Shown here: in pieces, positions 44,424 through 57,396 of the stretch
Numbering within the stretch: the stretch's first letter is position 1
Layout: each line of letters begins with the position of its first letter
Source of the DNA: Methanolobus tindarius DSM 2278
Lineage (GTDB): Archaea > Halobacteriota > Methanosarcinia > Methanosarcinales > Methanosarcinaceae
DNA: 64,000 nt
NCBI RefSeq assembly: GCF_000504205.1
Contig: NZ_AZAJ01000001.1
Coordinates: 1,462,879 to 1,526,878, forward strand
Direction: 5' to 3'
The notes under the pieces: generated by a model
What the model saw: only the letters and a program-made list of their open reading frames with translations
What the model was told of the DNA's origin: nothing
Databases searched by the model: none
Program-made: the position numbers and the translations under genes

Positions 44424-46052
44424 TTACAAAGCTTGGCTCCAATCAGAAGCACTTTGGTTTATTTGCAATACATCCATACCTAATTCTTCTACTTTTGAAT
44501 CTCCATAAGCAGGATTTGGATAATCATAAAATACTTCTGCATAAAGTTGTATAAGTACGTCCTGATTTTCTCTTTCCAGATCAAGTCTTTGTCTGTAATG
44601 ATATTCTTCCATATATTCCAGAGTCAGAGGTTCTTGATACCTCAATTCATAATTGCCACTTGGTAATCTTCTGGAACTAATGTGAATATCCGCGGACAGT
44701 ATGTCTCCAAATCCATTTGGATATGCATACTTATCATTGTAGATTAAGTCAAAGGAGAGAGTTCCTCTGGTATGAGTTTCATTTATAGCTTCATTATCCG
44801 TCCATTGCATATTTGTTATTTCCACATTTTCGGTCATTCCGGCTTCAAATGGGAAATACCATGCAAGAAGCAAAATAACTGATATTATGATCAATATAAC
44901 CAAACCAAAAAGTCCCTTCTTCAACCAGGATAAACCGAAATGAAAAGCAATTATAGTTAATACTATCAGAGTGATGATTACAATGAGAATATCCTGTAAT
45001 GGACTAAGTTTTATATTTTCAGCACGGTTGTCTGCAAATGAATTATCCTCAATGGTATTTTTATCGTCTGGAAATCGATGGTAAATAGCATATTCTTCAT
45101 TTGACCGGAACTTATTATTTTTAATAATATTGTTGTCAGTGCTTTCGATGGTTATCCCATTTAGGTTGCTGTAGAAACTATTTCGCTCGAATATGTTGTT
45201 TGAACTCAAGGAAATTAAACGTATCCCAGAGTTCTTATTTTCTGAAAAATAATTATCTGTCACTGAATTTGAGTTTGAATGCCATACATTGAGACCATAC
45301 TGATTGTTTTCATTCAGATTGTTACCAAAGACTGTGTTTTCATCAGATGATGTCAATGCCAGACCGATGTTATTGAGAACGAGTTGGTTCTCGGTAATTG
45401 TGCAGAGTGAGGATTTCCTGAGGGCTATTCCATACATCTGGTTATTACTAAATTTATTATCTTTAATGGTAATCTGATCAGATTCATCCACATAAAGACC
45501 ACGTTTGTTATTCAGAATATTGTTATTTTCCAGTTTGCTTAGCGTGGAAGCAAGAAGATACATCCCATGCTCGGTATTTGAAAGAACAGTGTTATTTTGA
45601 ATCTCATTACCTGAAGAGGACTCGATATAAAAACCGTCCTGCGTATTAGAGATAATGTTGTTACTTACATGGCAATTTTTTGACTTTTCAATAAATATAC
45701 CTGCAACAGAAGGATTGGTACTATCTCCTTTAACTGTCAGGCCACTTATCCTTACGTTATCTGCTGTTATGTGAATTATTGAAGCAGATGAATTGTTAGA
45801 TGTAATAACGACATCATCAGGTTCAAGCGAAGAAGATCTTATGCTTAAAGGTTTGTCCACCTTAAGAGTTTCAGAATATGTTCCACTGTAGATAATTATG
45901 GAATCATTCTTTTGAGCCTGATCTATTGCATCCTGTATAGAACTGAAAGAGTTATTTGTATTGCTGTTGTCACCTACTGTTATTGTAGTTGCAGAGACAC
46001 AACTAACAGTAAGAAAAAGAAAGATCATCAATGTGATTATTCTAAGATTCAC
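44424..46052 (-). CDS. NosD/CASH-type parallel beta-helix surface protein
   Basis: The 542-residue protein has a signal peptide (residues 1-21), then a right-handed parallel beta-helix of Asn-rich repeats (residues 30-325: ISNTQDGFYIESSSGNEIQN, VLSNTEHGMYLLASTLSKLE and so on). A pair of membrane helices (about 352-398) follows, then a C-terminal domain of about 145 residues outside the membrane. Such proteins sit on the archaeal surface and bind polysaccharide or cell partners. Despite the NosD label, no nitrous oxide reductase is nearby. The upstream motif at 46132 is shared with two neighbours. Confidence 0.82.
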   Translation of the reverse strand: MNLRIITLMIFLFLTVSCVSATTITVGDNSNTNNSFSSIQDAIDQAQKNDSIIIYSGTYSETLKVDKPLSIRSSSLEPDDVVITSNNSSASIIHITADNVRISGLTVKGDSTNPSVAGIFIEKSKNCHVSNNIISNTQDGFYIESSSGNEIQNNTVLSNTEHGMYLLASTLSKLENNNILNNKRGLYVDESDQITIKDNKFSNNQMYGIALRKSSLCTITENQLVLNNIGLALTSSDENTVFGNNLNENNQYGLNVWHSNSNSVTDNYFSENKNSGIRLISLSSNNIFERNSFYSNLNGITIESTDNNIIKNNKFRSNEEYAIYHRFPDDKNTIEDNSFADNRAENIKLSPLQDILIVIITLIVLTIIAFHFGLSWLKKGLFGLVILIIISVILLLAWYFPFEAGMTENVEITNMQWTDNEAINETHTRGTLSFDLIYNDKYAYPNGFGDILSADIHISSRRLPSGNYELRYQEPLTLEYMEEYHYRQRLDLERENQDVLIQLYAEVFYDYPNPAYGDSKVEELGMDVLQINQSASDWSQAL

Positions 46053-46131
46053 GGTTTTTGTCCTTTAAACTTGGATCTGATCAGAAAATCGGTCTAACTT
46101 CATACTAATTTTTTAGTATAATATATATTTT

Positions 46132-46151
46132 TTATGGCCAATGTATCCAAC
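46132..46151 (-). promoter_or_regulatory. shared 20-bp upstream motif, copy A
   Basis: On the plus strand TTATGGCCA-ATGTA-TCCAAC; on the minus strand GTTGGA-TACAT-TGGCCATAA, lying directly upstream of a TATA box (AATATATATTATA, 46117-46129) for the beta-helix gene that starts at 46052. The same motif is at 50069 and 51052. Confidence 0.6.
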
Positions 46152-46302
46152 CAATATGCTTGTCATTCCTGACTTTACCCTGCTGAAAGCATCAGTTGGA
46201 TTGTATGACCATAATTAATAAATAAATTACATGTAACTTTTAATTAATTTATGAACTAATTTTAGAATATAGTAATTTTTGTAAATAATATGGAGTGATT
46301 AA

Positions 46303-46692
46303 ATGACAGAAAACCGAGGAAGATACCTGGCAATAATTGGTGGAGTTTTAGGTATCTTTGTAAGTTTAGGACTATACGGCTTAATTGAAGGGATAATAAG
46401 TACCAATTATATAGCTATAGCCTTTATTTATGGTGCGACACCAGTACTGGGAATATCTGACCCAAAAACAGTGTTAGCAATCCATACATTTTCAGCAACA
46501 GCACTTGCATTCATTGGAATCATAGCAGCTTACAAATTATCGAAAAACGTGCGTAATTCTGCATTAATTATAATTGCATCAGGCATTGCCGGATTCATAT
46601 TCATGGGATTTTTATGGATTCCAACCGGAATTTTGTTTGTAATCGGCGGGATACTATTAATGAGAGACATGAAGGTTAGTACCTCAGCTTAG
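46303..46692 (+). CDS. four-helix membrane protein
   Basis: The 129-residue protein has four hydrophobic helices with Gly-rich turns (GGVLGIFVSLGLYGLIEG, GIAGFIFMGFLWIPTGILF). GGAGTGA precedes the ATG well. I do not recognise the family. It is followed after about 40 nt by the 46736 gene on the same strand. Confidence 0.65.
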   Translation: MTENRGRYLAIIGGVLGIFVSLGLYGLIEGIISTNYIAIAFIYGATPVLGISDPKTVLAIHTFSATALAFIGIIAAYKLSKNVRNSALIIIASGIAGFIFMGFLWIPTGILFVIGGILLMRDMKVSTSA

Positions 46693-46735
46693 CATTATAC
46701 AAATTAAGAACTGATTGAGAAAAGAAGTGGTACTA

Positions 46736-47107
46736 ATGCCAATTGAGAAAAGAAAACTCGATGAAAATAAGGAAAATCCATATATTTCTATAGCAAAAGC
46801 AGTTGGATTGTTAGTTGTTGTATTTTTCCTGCTTTTTGCAGCCTTTTTTACGTGGAGTGCTTACAACCACATGTATTCAAAAGCAATTGATGCAAGACTA
46901 CTGGATACTGTTCCCGATGAGTTCGCTGTAGTTACAGAAGAAGAACTAAATGATTATCCAGCACTCAAAGAAACAATGGATACCCAGAGTTATGTAAAAG
47001 CAAATCCTCAGGAATGGAGCAAAACAATAGATTTTCTTGACGAAAAGGGGTCTTATGTAGTCAAATTCAAGGATGAATATTATGAGATTGGGTTTATGAC
47101 TGCATAA
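46736..47107 (+). CDS. hypothetical single-pass membrane protein
   Basis: The 123-residue protein has a cytoplasmic stretch, one hydrophobic helix (VGLLVVVFFLLFAAFFTWSA) and an outside domain of about 75 residues, rich in acidic residues, starting DARLLDTVPDEFAV. ATG at 46736 is preferred to the TTG at 46715. No family recognised; co-directional with the four-helix protein. Confidence 0.55.
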   Translation: MPIEKRKLDENKENPYISIAKAVGLLVVVFFLLFAAFFTWSAYNHMYSKAIDARLLDTVPDEFAVVTEEELNDYPALKETMDTQSYVKANPQEWSKTIDFLDEKGSYVVKFKDEYYEIGFMTA

Positions 47108-47167
47108 AGGCAGACTCAAATTGTTGAATATTTTAATAGTCTGCGAACATTTAGTTCATAGCTTATT

Positions 47168-47196
47168 GTGAACTACTAATCTCCTATAGAGATGAG
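47168..47196. repeat. 29-bp hairpin-bearing repeat, copy 1
   Basis: GTGAACTACTA-ATCTC-CTATA-GAGAT-GAG; see the partner at 47907. Both copies are 29 nt, in the same orientation, and flank the 47225 gene. The stem here is ATCTC/GAGAT, while copy 2 has ATTTC/GAAAT, a compensating C-G to T-A change. Confidence 0.5.
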
Positions 47197-47224
47197 TGTC
47201 TTGGATAGTTCTCTTCAAAATCAA

Positions 47225-47863
47225 TTACGACGTTCTAGTCTTAACTAATAACACCAAACATAAAAATAATAGTGCTGAAGTAAAACCGGATGTTTGCTCT
47301 GGTTCTACCTTTTCATTGCCAATAAAAAGGCTTTCATTTGTTATTTCGATATCTTTTTCTGGAGGGTCATCCCATAGAAAAAGTGTCGGCACGTCAGTTA
47401 TACTCTCATATACTTCACAATGAGTATTGACTATCTGATATATTTCATCAATTACTGATTCAGTGATGTTTTCTTGCTGATTGGAATCAAGCTCGACCAT
47501 TATATATCCACCCCATCCAGCACCAGTCATAACAACAGGACCACCAGATGTATGCATATATGAGCCTAAGTCAAAAGAAAGATTACATGTAGATCTTATA
47601 ACTGAGTATGTCCATTCATATTTTTCACTGTCCTCCTGAATAGTAGGGAGTGTACCAACAAAAGTAATAAATTCCGGTCGATTTCTTGTATAATTCATGT
47701 CAGGAGGGCCCACACTAGGGACAGGAACAGAGTATCCAAAGCGACTAATATTAATTTCAGATTCATTTAACTCTTCATTAGTAACATTTGCATCAACAGG
47801 AGACATAATCAATATTATATACGCCAGAACAAACCATTTGTTAATTTTTCTCTGATTTAACAT
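47225..47863 (-). CDS. surface protein with shared GPV domain and C-terminal anchor
   Basis: The 212-residue protein has a signal peptide, an Asn-rich stretch and then the domain also found in the 6194 and 52139 proteins (SGGPVVMTGAGWGGYIMVEL, then VIDEIYQIVNTHC and VPTLFLWDDPP). It ends in SGF, a hydrophobic helix and KTRTS, a degenerate form of the PGF-CTERM layout. ATG at 47863 is chosen because GAGGAGG precedes it; the frame begins at 47887. Flanked by two 29-bp repeats. Confidence 0.7.
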   Translation of the reverse strand: MLNQRKINKWFVLAYIILIMSPVDANVTNEELNESEINISRFGYSVPVPSVGPPDMNYTRNRPEFITFVGTLPTIQEDSEKYEWTYSVIRSTCNLSFDLGSYMHTSGGPVVMTGAGWGGYIMVELDSNQQENITESVIDEIYQIVNTHCEVYESITDVPTLFLWDDPPEKDIEITNESLFIGNEKVEPEQTSGFTSALLFLCLVLLVKTRTS

Positions 47864-47906
47864 GATAAAACCTCCTCTCATCATCAATGGAAGTATTACT
47901 ACTGTA

Positions 47907-47935
47907 GTGAACTACTATTTCCTAAAAGAAATGAG
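47907..47935. repeat. 29-bp hairpin-bearing repeat, copy 2
   Basis: GTGAACTACT-ATTTC-CTAAAA-GAAAT-GAG lies 44 bp upstream of the 47863 start. It matches copy 1 at 47168 with a compensatory stem change, so the hairpin seems to be conserved as structure. Confidence 0.5.
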
Positions 47936-48015
47936 ATTCATAGCTATTTTTAAGTTAATAGGCTTCAGTGAAGAGAATTAAGACCATTTATATGGATTAA
48001 TTTCTTAGACTATTC

Positions 48016-48597
48016 TTATCCTGTCCACACCTGAACAACTGCACGAGTATCCATATCAATCAGGGCAGATATCGAACTATCCATCCAGGTTACACTAATC
48101 AGGGGTTTTCCGGTATAGAATTTCTCCGAGGTCTCTGGTAATATTTGTTTTACGGAAGGATCTCCGTTGGTATACATACCAGAACCCATAGCATTGGCAA
48201 CTTCTTCGTTTTGAAGAGCAAGGCTAATAGCTTCAGACCGGACAGATTCAGGGATAGCTTCAAGGATATATCCGGTGATAATTATTTCATTGTCACTGTA
48301 TACGAAATCATATCTATCCATATACTTTGAAGCTGATGTAGAGGCAGTAGCATGTATGTGGATTTTGTTATTCTTTTCTGATGTAGCGAGTGTTATGTTG
48401 TCATATTCTATACCTTGGTAAGGACTGACCAGCTGAGATATTCTTGCCTCGATCTTATCAGCATTAGAAGGAGGAGCCCCGGTCCATAGAAATTCATTAA
48501 CAGAAGAAGAATTAGTAGAATTTGTCAGGGAAATAATACCTGCAAAGAGAAATATCATAACTACCAAAGCTATGGATATTTTAGACATACCAACCAT
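48016..48597 (-). CDS. signal-anchored secreted protein
   Basis: The 193-residue protein has an N-terminal helix (SKISIALVVMIFLFAGIIS) and an outside domain of about 165 residues with alternating strands, ending WMDSSISALIDMDTRAVVQV, reminiscent of PepSY-like folds but not clearly matching. ATG at 48597 follows TAGGTGAAAT; GTG nine bases upstream overlaps the site. It is downstream of the Ig-like gene, separated by a hairpin. Confidence 0.6.
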   Translation of the reverse strand: MVGMSKISIALVVMIFLFAGIISLTNSTNSSSVNEFLWTGAPPSNADKIEARISQLVSPYQGIEYDNITLATSEKNNKIHIHATASTSASKYMDRYDFVYSDNEIIITGYILEAIPESVRSEAISLALQNEEVANAMGSGMYTNGDPSVKQILPETSEKFYTGKPLISVTWMDSSISALIDMDTRAVVQVWTG

Positions 48598-48616
48598 GTA
48601 TTTCACCTAAAAAGAT

Positions 48617-48645
48617 AGACAGGACGTACCAATACGTCCATGTCT
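48617..48645 (-). terminator. intra-operon hairpin with T-tract
   Basis: Stem GGACGTA/TACGTCC with loop CCAA is extended by AGACA/TGTCT with one bulged base. On the minus strand it is followed by TATCTTTTT, just before the ribosome binding site of the 48016 gene. It looks like an attenuator or partial terminator between the Ig-like gene and the next. Confidence 0.5.
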
Positions 48646-48650
48646 GGTAT

Positions 48651-49937
48651 TTATTCCGAGTCCCCAATGGTTATCAAATAGTCAAACTCTTCTATATTAA
48701 TCGGAAGAATGTTCAATGTCCATTCTCCAACAGCACCTGATGTTTCATATGTTTCCACATATGATTCCAGAGTTTCCTGATAAATTCCAGCACTATCGAT
48801 TTCCCATGGAGGATAGGAGGAAGCTCCAAGACTTACAGTACCGCCATAAGTTGTTCTGATCAGCTTCAGTTCAACATTACCGGATCCATTTTCAAGTTCC
48901 AGGTCAAAGGAAGGATCTTCGGTTTCTGTTTCACTGCCTGTCCCCATCCATTTGTCATAATTGTAAACACTAGAGGACAACTTAATTGTGATAGGATCGT
49001 TGGTCTGAGTTGTAAATTTCTTAGCGTAAGGCTCAACAGGCTGGGTCCATACATCAAAGTTCAATGATACTTCATCGTCCCATTCATCTATAGAAGGATC
49101 ATCAATATTCAGATCAATATCCCCGTAATATGTGCCTCTTGCATCCTCAGGTACTTCAAGGTGTACATTGACTACAGCCGTTTCTCCGGCTTTGACGACA
49201 GATGGAGCAGTAATTTCCATTGCATCACTTTCAAATGCAAATCCACTTGTTCCATATCTACTGGAAAAACTCCATTGATCATCATCAAACTCAGGATCGA
49301 TTTCAATATCATGGTCAGCTATGTTCTTAAGTGTGATCTCATAATCATATTCTTCTCCTGATTCGACACGGTCTCTTATGTATGATGTCTGTATCTGAAT
49401 GTTTGGAGGAGTCCATACTTCAATATATAAGTACATAGCATTGATATATTGTGGATAGACGGAGTATGATTGCGGCATTGTATCGTCTGTGAAAGCAACA
49501 CTAGCCCCGTAGTCTCCTATATCTGCGTCTTCAGGAATGTCCACTTTAATTGTAAATTCTACCTTTTCTTCCGGTTCCAAATCTTTGCTGGAAGGTGTTA
49601 TGCTTACCCAGTTTTCATCAATGAGATTTTGTTGATATGCCGTAGGAACCATTTTTGGCTCAAGAGTGATTGTTTTATTATCTTTGTTGGTGACTGTTAC
49701 GGAAATCTCATTATTGTCTCCCGGCTTTAAATCAATGTTTGAATAAGTCGGATTGATATTGAGTTTTGCAAAAGTTATATCCGAGTATAGTATTGCTTCA
49801 TCACTGCTTTCGATTAATATCGTTTCTGATGTGGCATATGTTTCAATATCCGCACTGGCAACAGGTGAAAATGCCATTCCGATAAGTAGCATCGAAGCAA
49901 TTAAACTGTATATTCGTATTCTTTCATTGTTGTACAT
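48651..49937 (-). CDS. secreted Ig-like beta-sandwich surface protein
   Basis: The 428-residue protein has a signal peptide (residues 1-30, ending SPVASAD) and two or three Ig/CARDB-like domains: DLKPGDNNEISVTVTNKDNK, then EPEEKVEFTIKVDIPEDADIG, and later KAGETAVVNVHLEVPEDARG, the pattern of archaeal COG1470-type surface proteins. There is no clear C-terminal membrane anchor. It is likely exported and held in the S-layer zone. It is the first gene of an operon with 48016, and motif copy B lies upstream. Confidence 0.75.
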   Translation of the reverse strand: MYNNERIRIYSLIASMLLIGMAFSPVASADIETYATSETILIESSDEAILYSDITFAKLNINPTYSNIDLKPGDNNEISVTVTNKDNKTITLEPKMVPTAYQQNLIDENWVSITPSSKDLEPEEKVEFTIKVDIPEDADIGDYGASVAFTDDTMPQSYSVYPQYINAMYLYIEVWTPPNIQIQTSYIRDRVESGEEYDYEITLKNIADHDIEIDPEFDDDQWSFSSRYGTSGFAFESDAMEITAPSVVKAGETAVVNVHLEVPEDARGTYYGDIDLNIDDPSIDEWDDEVSLNFDVWTQPVEPYAKKFTTQTNDPITIKLSSSVYNYDKWMGTGSETETEDPSFDLELENGSGNVELKLIRTTYGGTVSLGASSYPPWEIDSAGIYQETLESYVETYETSGAVGEWTLNILPINIEEFDYLITIGDSE

Positions 49938-50068
49938 ATTTTCCTCCTCTTTGATCAGATCATTTTTTTGTTGGTTTAAAATCCAAGAGCATTTTTAATT
50001 TTTATGTATCTGATGCTATATTATTTTAAATGTTAGTATGCTTAATTGGTAGCCTACTTATAAAATAA

Positions 50069-50088
50069 TTATGGCCATTGTCTAAAAC
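50069..50088 (-). promoter_or_regulatory. shared 20-bp upstream motif, copy B
   Basis: TTATGGCCA-TTGTC-TAAAAC on the plus strand, one or two bases off copies A and C in the second half. On the minus strand it lies directly upstream of TTATTTTATAAGTAG (50054-50068), the probable TATA region of the Ig-like gene that starts at 49937. Confidence 0.5.
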
Positions 50089-50113
50089 TATGAAATAAAT
50101 TTTTTATATATAT

Positions 50114-50923
50114 CTAATAGTTTTCATCAAATAACAGAGAAGCTTGTGGATAGTATTTTTTGTATCGTCCATCCTTTTTGAACTCAATCAGGTCATCTTC
50201 ATGGAGTGCTTTGATATGCCAGTGTACTGTACTTTTGTCAATGTTCAGGGTAGAGGATAATTCCTGCCCTGTGATACCCGGTCTTTCAGATATTATCTCA
50301 ATTATTTTCCTGCGGTTCTTGTTCTTCCTGTGAAGATGAAGCAATTTTGCATCTTCTGTTTTTGAATAAGTGATATGAAAGAGGCCTTTTAACTTGCCTT
50401 TTTTAAATGTCTGTATTCGATTATCAGAGGACAGTTTCGAAAGATAATAACGTAAAGTACCTCTTTTCAAATCAAGGTCTTCAGATATCTCAGACTCCAT
50501 ACAACCAGGATTTTCAGCTATGTAAGAGGCAATTTCCTGCATTTTGGGATTGGTACCTCCTGTCAGTATTTTCCCAAGAAGAAGTGGAAGACATTTAAGT
50601 AGTGTTACCGTAGAAAATACAGCTCCACTTATGACAGATAGTTGTATCCATAAAGGCAGTTCCCAGAAAGTGATTTGCTTGTCTGGACCACTGTCATCAA
50701 CTACATCACCTTCTTCAAGGGGCAAATGCCCCGGAGTGACAATATACTCGTGCTCATCACCACCACCAAATGGGTGCAATAATGCAGAAGGATGATATAG
50801 ATAGAAAAATGGACTTTTTTTAACACGGTAGCCATCATCACCATTTAAAGTGCAGACTGTCACTATCGTTCCAAAAATAATAATCAGGATTAATCCTGCT
50901 CTAACCAATGAACCAATTCTCAT
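50114..50923 (-). CDS. membrane-anchored double winged-helix regulator
   Basis: The 269-residue protein has a membrane helix at residues 8-25, an extracytoplasmic loop (28-90) rich in His and acidic residues (YHPSALLHPFGGGDEHEY), a second helix (91-118) and two winged-helix domains in the cytoplasm (127-190: MESEISEDLDLKRGTLRYYL; 200-262: ITGQELSSTLNIDKSTVHWH). This matches the archaeal COG3398-type family. It could sense an outside signal and act directly on DNA. Motif copy C upstream suggests it regulates itself. Confidence 0.85.
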   Translation of the reverse strand: MRIGSLVRAGLILIIIFGTIVTVCTLNGDDGYRVKKSPFFYLYHPSALLHPFGGGDEHEYIVTPGHLPLEEGDVVDDSGPDKQITFWELPLWIQLSVISGAVFSTVTLLKCLPLLLGKILTGGTNPKMQEIASYIAENPGCMESEISEDLDLKRGTLRYYLSKLSSDNRIQTFKKGKLKGLFHITYSKTEDAKLLHLHRKNKNRRKIIEIISERPGITGQELSSTLNIDKSTVHWHIKALHEDDLIEFKKDGRYKKYYPQASLLFDENY

Positions 50924-51051
50924 AATTTTCTAAGTTTGTCCAAATCTAACATTTTAGCATATGTAATTGTCAACTAATTTCATCAAATATTATTAGAACT
51001 TTTTATATAGCTTGTCAAGAAAATTTCTTACCTGAATATGTTATTTATTTT

Positions 51052-51071
51052 TTATGGCCATATTGTCCAAC
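51052..51071 (-). promoter_or_regulatory. shared 20-bp upstream motif, copy C
   Basis: TTATGGCCA-TATTG-TCCAAC on the plus strand. For the regulator gene on the minus strand it lies about 40 bp upstream of the strong TATA element CTATATAAAAAG (51000-51011). It has the same orientation relative to its gene as copies A and B. Confidence 0.6.
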
Positions 51072-51140
51072 TGTTCTCCACCCCAAACTTACCCGTGTAT
51101 TTTTTCTCAAATAACAGAAATCTCTACATTAGATAAAATT

Positions 51141-51740
51141 ATGACAGCAATGCAGGATTATCTGAAATCAAAATCCATCATCGACTTCAATCACCCAGTC
51201 GTCTTTAAAAAAGCAAAAGAAATAGCCGGAAACAGTCAAAACCCAATAGAAATTGCCAGACTCTGCTTCGAGTTCGTCAGGGATGAGATTAAACACAGCT
51301 ACGACTACCGTATGAATCCTGTCACCCTGAAAGGATCTGAAGTCCTTGAACATGGAACCGGTTACTGCTATGCTAAAAGCCATCTCCTTGCAGCACTTCT
51401 CAGAGCAAACTCAATTCCGGCAGGTATATGTTACCAGCGTCTGAGCAGGGAGGATAATTCAGAAGAAGGTCCATTCTGTTTACACGCTTTAAATGCAGTT
51501 TATCTGGAAAATATCGGATGGTACCGGATGGATGCAAGAGGAAATAAGGAAGGAGTAAACGCTCAGTTCAACCCGCCTTATGAACAGCTTGCATATGAAA
51601 TCAGGATCGAGGGTGAAGCTAATCTGCCGGAGATTTGGGCTGATCCACTTCCGGTTGTTGTTGAAGTATTGACTAAGTACAAGAGCTATGATGAAGTTTA
51701 CGAGAACCTTCCGGATGTTCCGTTGATTAGTAAAAAATGA
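51141..51740 (+). CDS. transglutaminase-like cysteine protease-fold protein
   Basis: The 199-residue protein has a transglutaminase-like triad: Cys in EHGTGYCYAKS, His in FCLHALNAV and Asp in YRMDARGNKEG. Such proteins cleave or crosslink peptides, often as hydrolases. Start at 51141 (MTAMQDYL) is chosen because the frame's longer version to 51054 overlaps motif copy C and has no ribosome site. The NTF2-like gene follows by 28 nt. It appears cytoplasmic, with no signal peptide. Confidence 0.8.
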   Translation: MTAMQDYLKSKSIIDFNHPVVFKKAKEIAGNSQNPIEIARLCFEFVRDEIKHSYDYRMNPVTLKGSEVLEHGTGYCYAKSHLLAALLRANSIPAGICYQRLSREDNSEEGPFCLHALNAVYLENIGWYRMDARGNKEGVNAQFNPPYEQLAYEIRIEGEANLPEIWADPLPVVVEVLTKYKSYDEVYENLPDVPLISKK

Positions 51741-56304: not shown

Positions 56305-57396
56305 TCACTCGGTCAATAACATCAGTGATCTCATAAGATCAGTTCTTGAGAGGATGCCTGTAACATTACCGTCATCCACTACCAGAATACGCCCTATATT
56401 ATTGATTGTCATTATCTTGAATGCTTCTGCCGCACTGGAACTTGATGGCAGTGTTACGACATCTTTAGTCATAACATCGGATACAAGAACCGCATATCTT
56501 TCATGTGGCATTACATTTCGTATGTCTGTAAACGTTACAATCCCTTTTAAAGAATTGCTTTTTATTACAGGGTATCCCAGATGTTTGTTCTCAAACATAA
56601 AATGTGAGAGATCCTCAACTGTCATCTCCGGTTCAACTGATATTACTTCTTTGGACATGACATCAGCAACCTTGTAATTCTCAAGACCAACAGTAACAGT
56701 TGTTGATTTGTCCTCTTCGGAAGCACCCATATATACAAAAAATGCTATCAAAAGCAGCCACAGGTTTGAAACTACACCAACGAGGGCCATCAGGAAAGCA
56801 AACATCTTTCCAACTGATGCGGCGTAGTGAGTGGCCTTTACATAGCTCATCCTCTTTGCAAACATAGATCTTAGAATTCTTCCACCATCCATAGGGAAAG
56901 CCGGAATCAGATTGAAGATTGCCAGTATTATGTTTATAGTAGCAAGGATGCTTACCATAAGGAAGATCCAGGTATTACTATAAGTTGGGACATAAGCAGA
57001 AGCAACCACATTTAGTCCCAGAAGAACGAAACCTATTATCAGACTTACAAGAGGACCTGCAAATGCCATCTTAAATTCCTGTGATGGTTCTCTTGGAATT
57101 TCTTCCATGGATGAGACGCCACCCAGTAACATCAGTGTTATATCTTTTATTTCAACACCATAGCCTTTAGCTATGTATGAGTGACCAAGTTCGTGGAGCA
57201 GTACACAGACAAATAGTAATATGGTCGTTAAAAGTGAGAGACCGTATGTCATTACAGGCGAACCAATATCCGCAAAACCATAAGGTTGTGGGTTTGTTGC
57301 GAATACAAGTGCAAAAATGGGAAGTATAAACAGAAAAGTGATATGCACTTTTATGGGTATTCCCATGATGCTCCCGATCTTATATGAAGAATTCAT
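56305..57396 (-). CDS. site-2 (M50) intramembrane metalloprotease with CBS domains
   Basis: The 363-residue protease has the zinc site HELGHSYIA within a membrane helix, the second site NLIPAFPMDGGRIL, and about five membrane helices. Two CBS domains follow (residues 240-360: VADVMSKEVISVEP and VSDVMTKDVVTLPS), which bind adenine nucleotides and would regulate cleavage. S2P enzymes cut transmembrane signalling proteins. It is upstream of traB on the same strand, 34 nt apart. Confidence 0.93.
   Translation of the reverse strand: MNSSYKIGSIMGIPIKVHITFLFILPIFALVFATNPQPYGFADIGSPVMTYGLSLLTTILLFVCVLLHELGHSYIAKGYGVEIKDITLMLLGGVSSMEEIPREPSQEFKMAFAGPLVSLIIGFVLLGLNVVASAYVPTYSNTWIFLMVSILATINIILAIFNLIPAFPMDGGRILRSMFAKRMSYVKATHYAASVGKMFAFLMALVGVVSNLWLLLIAFFVYMGASEEDKSTTVTVGLENYKVADVMSKEVISVEPEMTVEDLSHFMFENKHLGYPVIKSNSLKGIVTFTDIRNVMPHERYAVLVSDVMTKDVVTLPSSSSAAEAFKIMTINNIGRILVVDDGNVTGILSRTDLMRSLMLLTE

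Follow-up and report, generated by a model that had tools for sequence, protein, structure and literature searches.

The main finding of this analysis is that a membrane-anchored one-component regulator with two winged helices, encoded in the genome of Methanolobus tindarius DSM 2278, probably binds an operator upstream of the BRE/TATA element and thereby activates local envelope genes as well as its own gene. The operator is an asymmetric 20-bp motif that reads GTTGGA-N5-TGGCCATAA toward the genes, and four copies of it are present in the window, the whole 64-kb stretch of DNA that was analysed. A sequence-only reading of this stretch had described the complement of the motif, TTATGGCCA-N5-TCCAAC, at 46132, 50069 and 51052, and had proposed a small dedicated regulon of surface genes that includes the regulator itself. 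All three sites were found (exact, two mismatches and exact, respectively), with the 5-nt gap and the orientation common to all, but a fourth copy at 46195-46214 on the plus strand had been missed. The proposed regulon is supported by the rarity of the sites, their conservation, their linkage to the regulator and the covariation of their subtypes, but it is larger than supposed, with eight or more promoters and three regulator paralogues in the genome.

Operator copies and promoter anatomy

Operator 1 (46132..46151, minus strand, GTTGGATACATTGGCCATAA) matches the motif exactly and faces the gene of a secreted beta-helix (NosD-like) membrane protein (44424..46052, minus strand), its predicted target; it is kept at the orthologues in G062 (Methanolobus vulcani PL 12/M), G063 (M. 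vulcani B1d), G043 and G061. Operator 2 (46195..46214, plus strand, GTTGGATTGTATGACCATAA) has one mismatch and faces a divergent gene for a small membrane protein, predicted to be its target, of 129 aa with four predicted membrane segments (46303..46692, plus strand), for which a Pfam search gave no match. This copy is kept in G043, G046, G048, G061, G062 and G063, and divergent site pairs of this kind recur, with a spacing of 63 bp in Methanolobus and of about 82 bp in Methanosarcina. The weaker operator 3 (50069..50088, minus strand, GTTTTAGACAATGGCCATAA) has its two mismatches in GTTTTA, where the consensus has GTTGGA, and its predicted target is the gene it faces, which encodes a secreted Ig-like protein with WxL-interacting/NEW3-type domains (48651..49937, minus strand). 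The G062 copy of this site is identical and the G048 copy is a better match (GTTTGATGTTATGGCCATAA). Operator 4 (51052..51071, minus strand, GTTGGACAATATGGCCATAA) is exact, lies 128 bp 5' of the regulator gene and is kept in G046, G048, G062 and G063. The motif is retained 5' of orthologues in four Methanolobus relatives (G062, G063, G046 and G048). The listed start codon of a transglutaminase-like ORF (window 51054-51740, plus strand) falls inside operator 4 (TTATGGCC), and translation probably begins further on, at an ATG near 51142.

A TATA box starts exactly 4 bp past the motif in all four copies: TATATATT at 46120-46127 (minus strand), TAAATAAA at 46219-46226 (plus strand), TTTATAAG at 50057-50064 (minus strand) and TAAATAAC at 51040-51047 (minus strand). 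The motif had been said to abut the TATA region at its first two sites, which is correct for both, but the restriction to two does not hold because the same 4-bp spacing extends the abutment to the regulator's own site. This anatomy is also seen beyond the window. The fetched loci, 820 kb in all, contain 104 distinct sites, of which 103 lie between genes; the base before the motif is A in 88% and positions 25-30 read T-W-W-A-T-A in fixed phase (T 88%, A 83% and T 90% at positions 25, 28 and 29). The operator lies upstream of BRE/TATA and overlaps neither the TATA box nor the start. Most genes downstream of the sites encode secreted, lipo- or membrane proteins, an N-terminal hydrophobic segment being found in 75 of 81 downstream genes vs 350 of 679 other genes (p=3e-14).

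The possibility that the copies reflect chance similarity or a dispersed repeat near promoters draws on the bare motif, which with up to 3 mismatches gives six window matches vs 2.3 expected, a mild enrichment only and a weak test by itself. However, when the flanking bases and the TATA box, as learned from the fetched loci, were added to the motif to give a composite pattern, four matches were found in the window vs none in 40 Markov-simulated windows, and the whole 3.15-Mb genome gave eight sites vs none for the reversed-pattern control. The motif is therefore not equally common at unrelated loci, and the eight comprise every one of the window sites, even the weak copy at 50069. Across the order, 158 composite sites (tallied from the table) were found vs one in the control, and they are distributed over 61 of 186 genomes; with up to 1 mismatch the bare motif gave 159 matches vs 33 reversed ones in 112 genomes of the family (also tallied from the table). 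Additionally, the flanks vary from site to site whereas the motif and the TATA phase are constant, which is not what a dispersed repeat predicts, and chance or repetition is extremely improbable as an explanation. A motif scan of viral contigs gave 55 scattered matches; for a pattern with 15 fixed bases, chance hits are to be expected.

Of the other four composite sites of the genome, that at 1401725 precedes a paralogous regulator, that at 1414544 a membrane protein and that at 2765932 a LolA-like lipoprotein. The site at 1408744-1408774 (L070:16754, G000) belongs to an apparent duplicate of the 1401725 promoter and part of its region; this duplicate lies in the neighbouring ABC-transporter cluster and apparently lacks an intact regulator gene.

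The regulator and its linkage to the operator

The regulator (269 aa; 50114..50923, minus strand) consists of an N-terminal hydrophobic segment, an ectodomain, a second hydrophobic segment and two winged helices. The hydrophobic segments are predicted at about residues 1-25 and 91-120, the second one directly preceded by TFWELPL, and hydropathy suggests that residues 26-90 (50654..50848, minus strand) form an outside loop. The two winged-helix domains, at about residues 124-197 and 201-258 (50150..50554, minus strand), are predicted to be cytoplasmic. The sequence-only reading had also recognized two winged helices, and this is borne out by Pfam, where HTH_24 and other winged-helix families match in two stretches. 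An AlphaFold model computed with three sequences reached a mean pLDDT of 44, which does not suffice for a fold search, though its low-confidence secondary structure agrees with this architecture. In the family alignment, only the closest relatives have the His-rich outside loop noted in the same reading, whereas all other members lack it, and because of this restriction the idea of a His-based metal sensor is unsupported and was dropped. Conservation in the ectodomain is wider for Y-x-V-x-P and for a juxtamembrane F-W-x-L-P (mostly TFW-E/D-L-P).

Sites and regulators are linked well beyond M. tindarius. The fetched loci contain 54 distinct regulator genes, and a search of the 1.3 kb upstream of each gave a sense-strand site for 39 and none for the other 15; the reversed control gave 0 of 54. 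Most distances are either short (about 45-195 bp) or longer (about 510-565 bp), and in the longer class the gene of a secreted companion of about 150 codons stands in between. Because this set was partly picked for containing regulators or sites, a blind test is more telling. In this test, eight composite sites in other families of the order were found without reference to the regulator, and for six of the eight a separate protein search showed that a regulator homologue is encoded on the same strand, less than 1.2 kb further downstream (G122, G153, G154, G163, G172 and G175). Outside the family, seven genomes have both regulator and motif, two the regulator only, one the motif only and 64 neither (p=1.6e-7); the regulator/motif table within the family reads 32, 9, 21 and 50 (p=7e-7).

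Another reading is that the element, though a genuine operator, belongs to some other, unlinked transcription factor that controls a large number of envelope promoters and has the membrane regulator as just one of its targets. This would account for G056, a genome of the genus Methanolobus with six composite sites (L178-L181, L243 and L244) in which no regulator was found by sequence or profile, and for G044, which has one composite site and one site without a TATA box and in which no regulator was found, profile search included. In such exceptions, either another factor can read the element, or the regulator was lost, or it is missing from the assemblies. The unlinked-factor reading would also fit some Methanosarcina sites (GTTYGATGATCTGGCCATAA) that precede non-envelope genes, such as that of an ArsR-like regulator. 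As a further exception to the linkage, a related Methanosarcina regulator clade that was checked for sites showed no consistent one upstream. In L202 and L210 (G080 and G074), the variant GTTYGATGATCTGGCCATAA is followed by a TATA box 5' of a soluble ArsR-like regulator, which suggests a second use of the element. However, outside the family the regulator is found together with the motif, which then stands directly 5' of its gene, and the operator subtype varies with the local regulator subclade even inside one genome (G062). Both observations speak against an unlinked factor, and this reading is quite unlikely.

The subtypes concern both base and spacing. Position 12 carries a non-T base at 12 of 13 sites in clusters of one regulator subclade (the second copy of G062, G053, G064 and G043) vs 1 of 31 in the other two subclades (the window-type and second-cluster-type clusters), with p=8e-9, though all p-values given here overstate independence because the sequences are related by descent. 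Shared ancestry inflates them, but the sites within one cluster stand 5' of unrelated genes. Two operator/regulator types lie side by side in G062. In nearly every genome examined, members of a third paralogue clade, to which one copy in the M. tindarius genome belongs, are preceded by an operator with N4 spacing. From these sequence comparisons it follows that operator subtype tracks regulator subclade, both in base 12 and in N4/N5 spacing.

Proposed mode of action and relation to known systems

In the proposed model, the N-terminal part of the regulator would lie outside the cell and the two winged helices inside, the protein encoded at 50114-50923 or a close paralogue would bind the operator directly, and an outside signal would act on it. 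With 4 bp between the end of the operator and the TATA box, the bound protein would sit directly upstream of the BRE and would most likely recruit TFB/TBP as an activator. The operators would then drive the genes of the beta-helix protein, of the small membrane protein encoded divergently from it, of the Ig-like protein and, by positive autoregulation, of the regulator. They would also drive the LolA-like lipoprotein gene and that of the paralogous regulator together with the genes next to it.

It is also conceivable that the regulator binds the same sites as a repressor that is released by an outside signal. Autorepression is common in winged-helix regulators, and the location of the sites is compatible with repression too. 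However, a fixed phase upstream of BRE/TATA and clear of the TATA box and the start is a type of position known for archaeal activators such as EarA and TFB-RF1 (PMC5512572, PMC5937170). This match favours activation with positive autoregulation, so we infer activation rather than repression and regard a repressor as unlikely.

EarA, a winged-helix protein of Methanococcus and Pyrococcus, and TFB-RF1, a TFB-recruiting factor of Pyrococcus, both act upstream of the core promoter and help TFB recruitment at weak BREs (PMC5512572, PMC5937170, PMC13286277). The operator described here has a like position directly upstream of BRE/TATA with a fixed 4-bp spacing, but the likeness concerns the way of working, and the Methanolobus regulator differs from EarA in its two predicted membrane segments. 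To our knowledge, neither EarA nor TFB-RF1 has been described as membrane-anchored.

The nearest characterised archaeal case is that of ArnR and ArnR1 of Sulfolobus acidocaldarius, one-component proteins of the membrane that activate genes for surface structures from sites upstream of the BRE (PMC6396743). The Methanolobus regulator resembles them in being archaeal and, by prediction, membrane-bound, with a site upstream of the BRE and surface genes as predicted targets. However, ArnR combines an N-terminal HTH with HAMP and sensor domains and carries its two membrane segments at the C-terminus (PMC6396743), whereas in the Methanolobus regulator the membrane segments come first and the winged helices are C-terminal. 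The ArnR box is also an inverted repeat, TCGAC-N5-GTCGA (PMC6396743), unlike the asymmetric motif found here.

More generally, the regulator shares with the transmembrane transcription regulators (TTRs), a one-component class abundant in methanogen classes, a DNA-binding domain and a predicted membrane segment in one polypeptide. The accessible portion of the TTR survey names no family, operator or regulon of this kind (PMC10269533), and the Methanolobus regulator is distinguished by a pair of winged helices at the C-terminus that follow a short ectodomain. The Pfam families HTH_24 and HTH_HVO_0163_N match both winged helices, with whole-protein scores that exceed the curated cut-offs, but these are general DNA-binding domains that imply no function, operator or membrane architecture. 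The genome G044, which we take to be a strain of Methanolobus psychrophilus, has few sites and no regulator, and it therefore looks unlikely that the motif is identical with the 'cold box' known from that species (PMC5378194). A literature search on the motif sequence, on COG3398 and on related subjects, in which subscription journals were thinly covered, gave no description of the regulator family, the operator or the companion. This agrees with the sequence-only reading, which knew of no such regulon; the TTR class is known, while the regulator family, its operator and the frequent secreted companion are apparently undescribed.

Few membrane-bound transcription factors have been characterised in archaea, and the 2019 ArnR paper describes itself as the first biochemical analysis of archaeal ones (PMC6396743). 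If the model is true, it provides a family of regulators whose operator is defined, whose promoter architecture is fixed and whose targets can be predicted throughout the order, including the genetically tractable Methanosarcina. Control of the archaeal surface from the membrane could then be tested directly, and the operator subtypes of the paralogues would form a natural specificity series.

Secreted companion and possible signalling

The companion is a secreted and conserved protein, about 150 residues long, whose gene stands directly before that of the regulator, in operon order with it, in L154, L161, L235, L239, L261 and others. It follows the pattern TITQGETNWH...VDLNWGDTSDSLRL...GTW.YEVYGYSVSGTEDY, had no match in a Pfam search and shares Y-x-V-x-P, at its mature N-terminus, with the regulator ectodomain. 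We tentatively suggest, at somewhat less than even confidence, that the two form a two-part outside-in module of Methanosarcinales, in which the companion, under the same operator, would modulate the regulator and paralogous modules would keep surface regulons separate through their operator subtypes. The window also encodes, about 5 kb from the regulator, a CBS-domain protein that resembles a membrane metalloprotease (56305-57396, minus strand) and, judged by eye, looks to be of the site-2-protease type. Proteolytic release of the membrane-anchored regulator would be one way of signalling.
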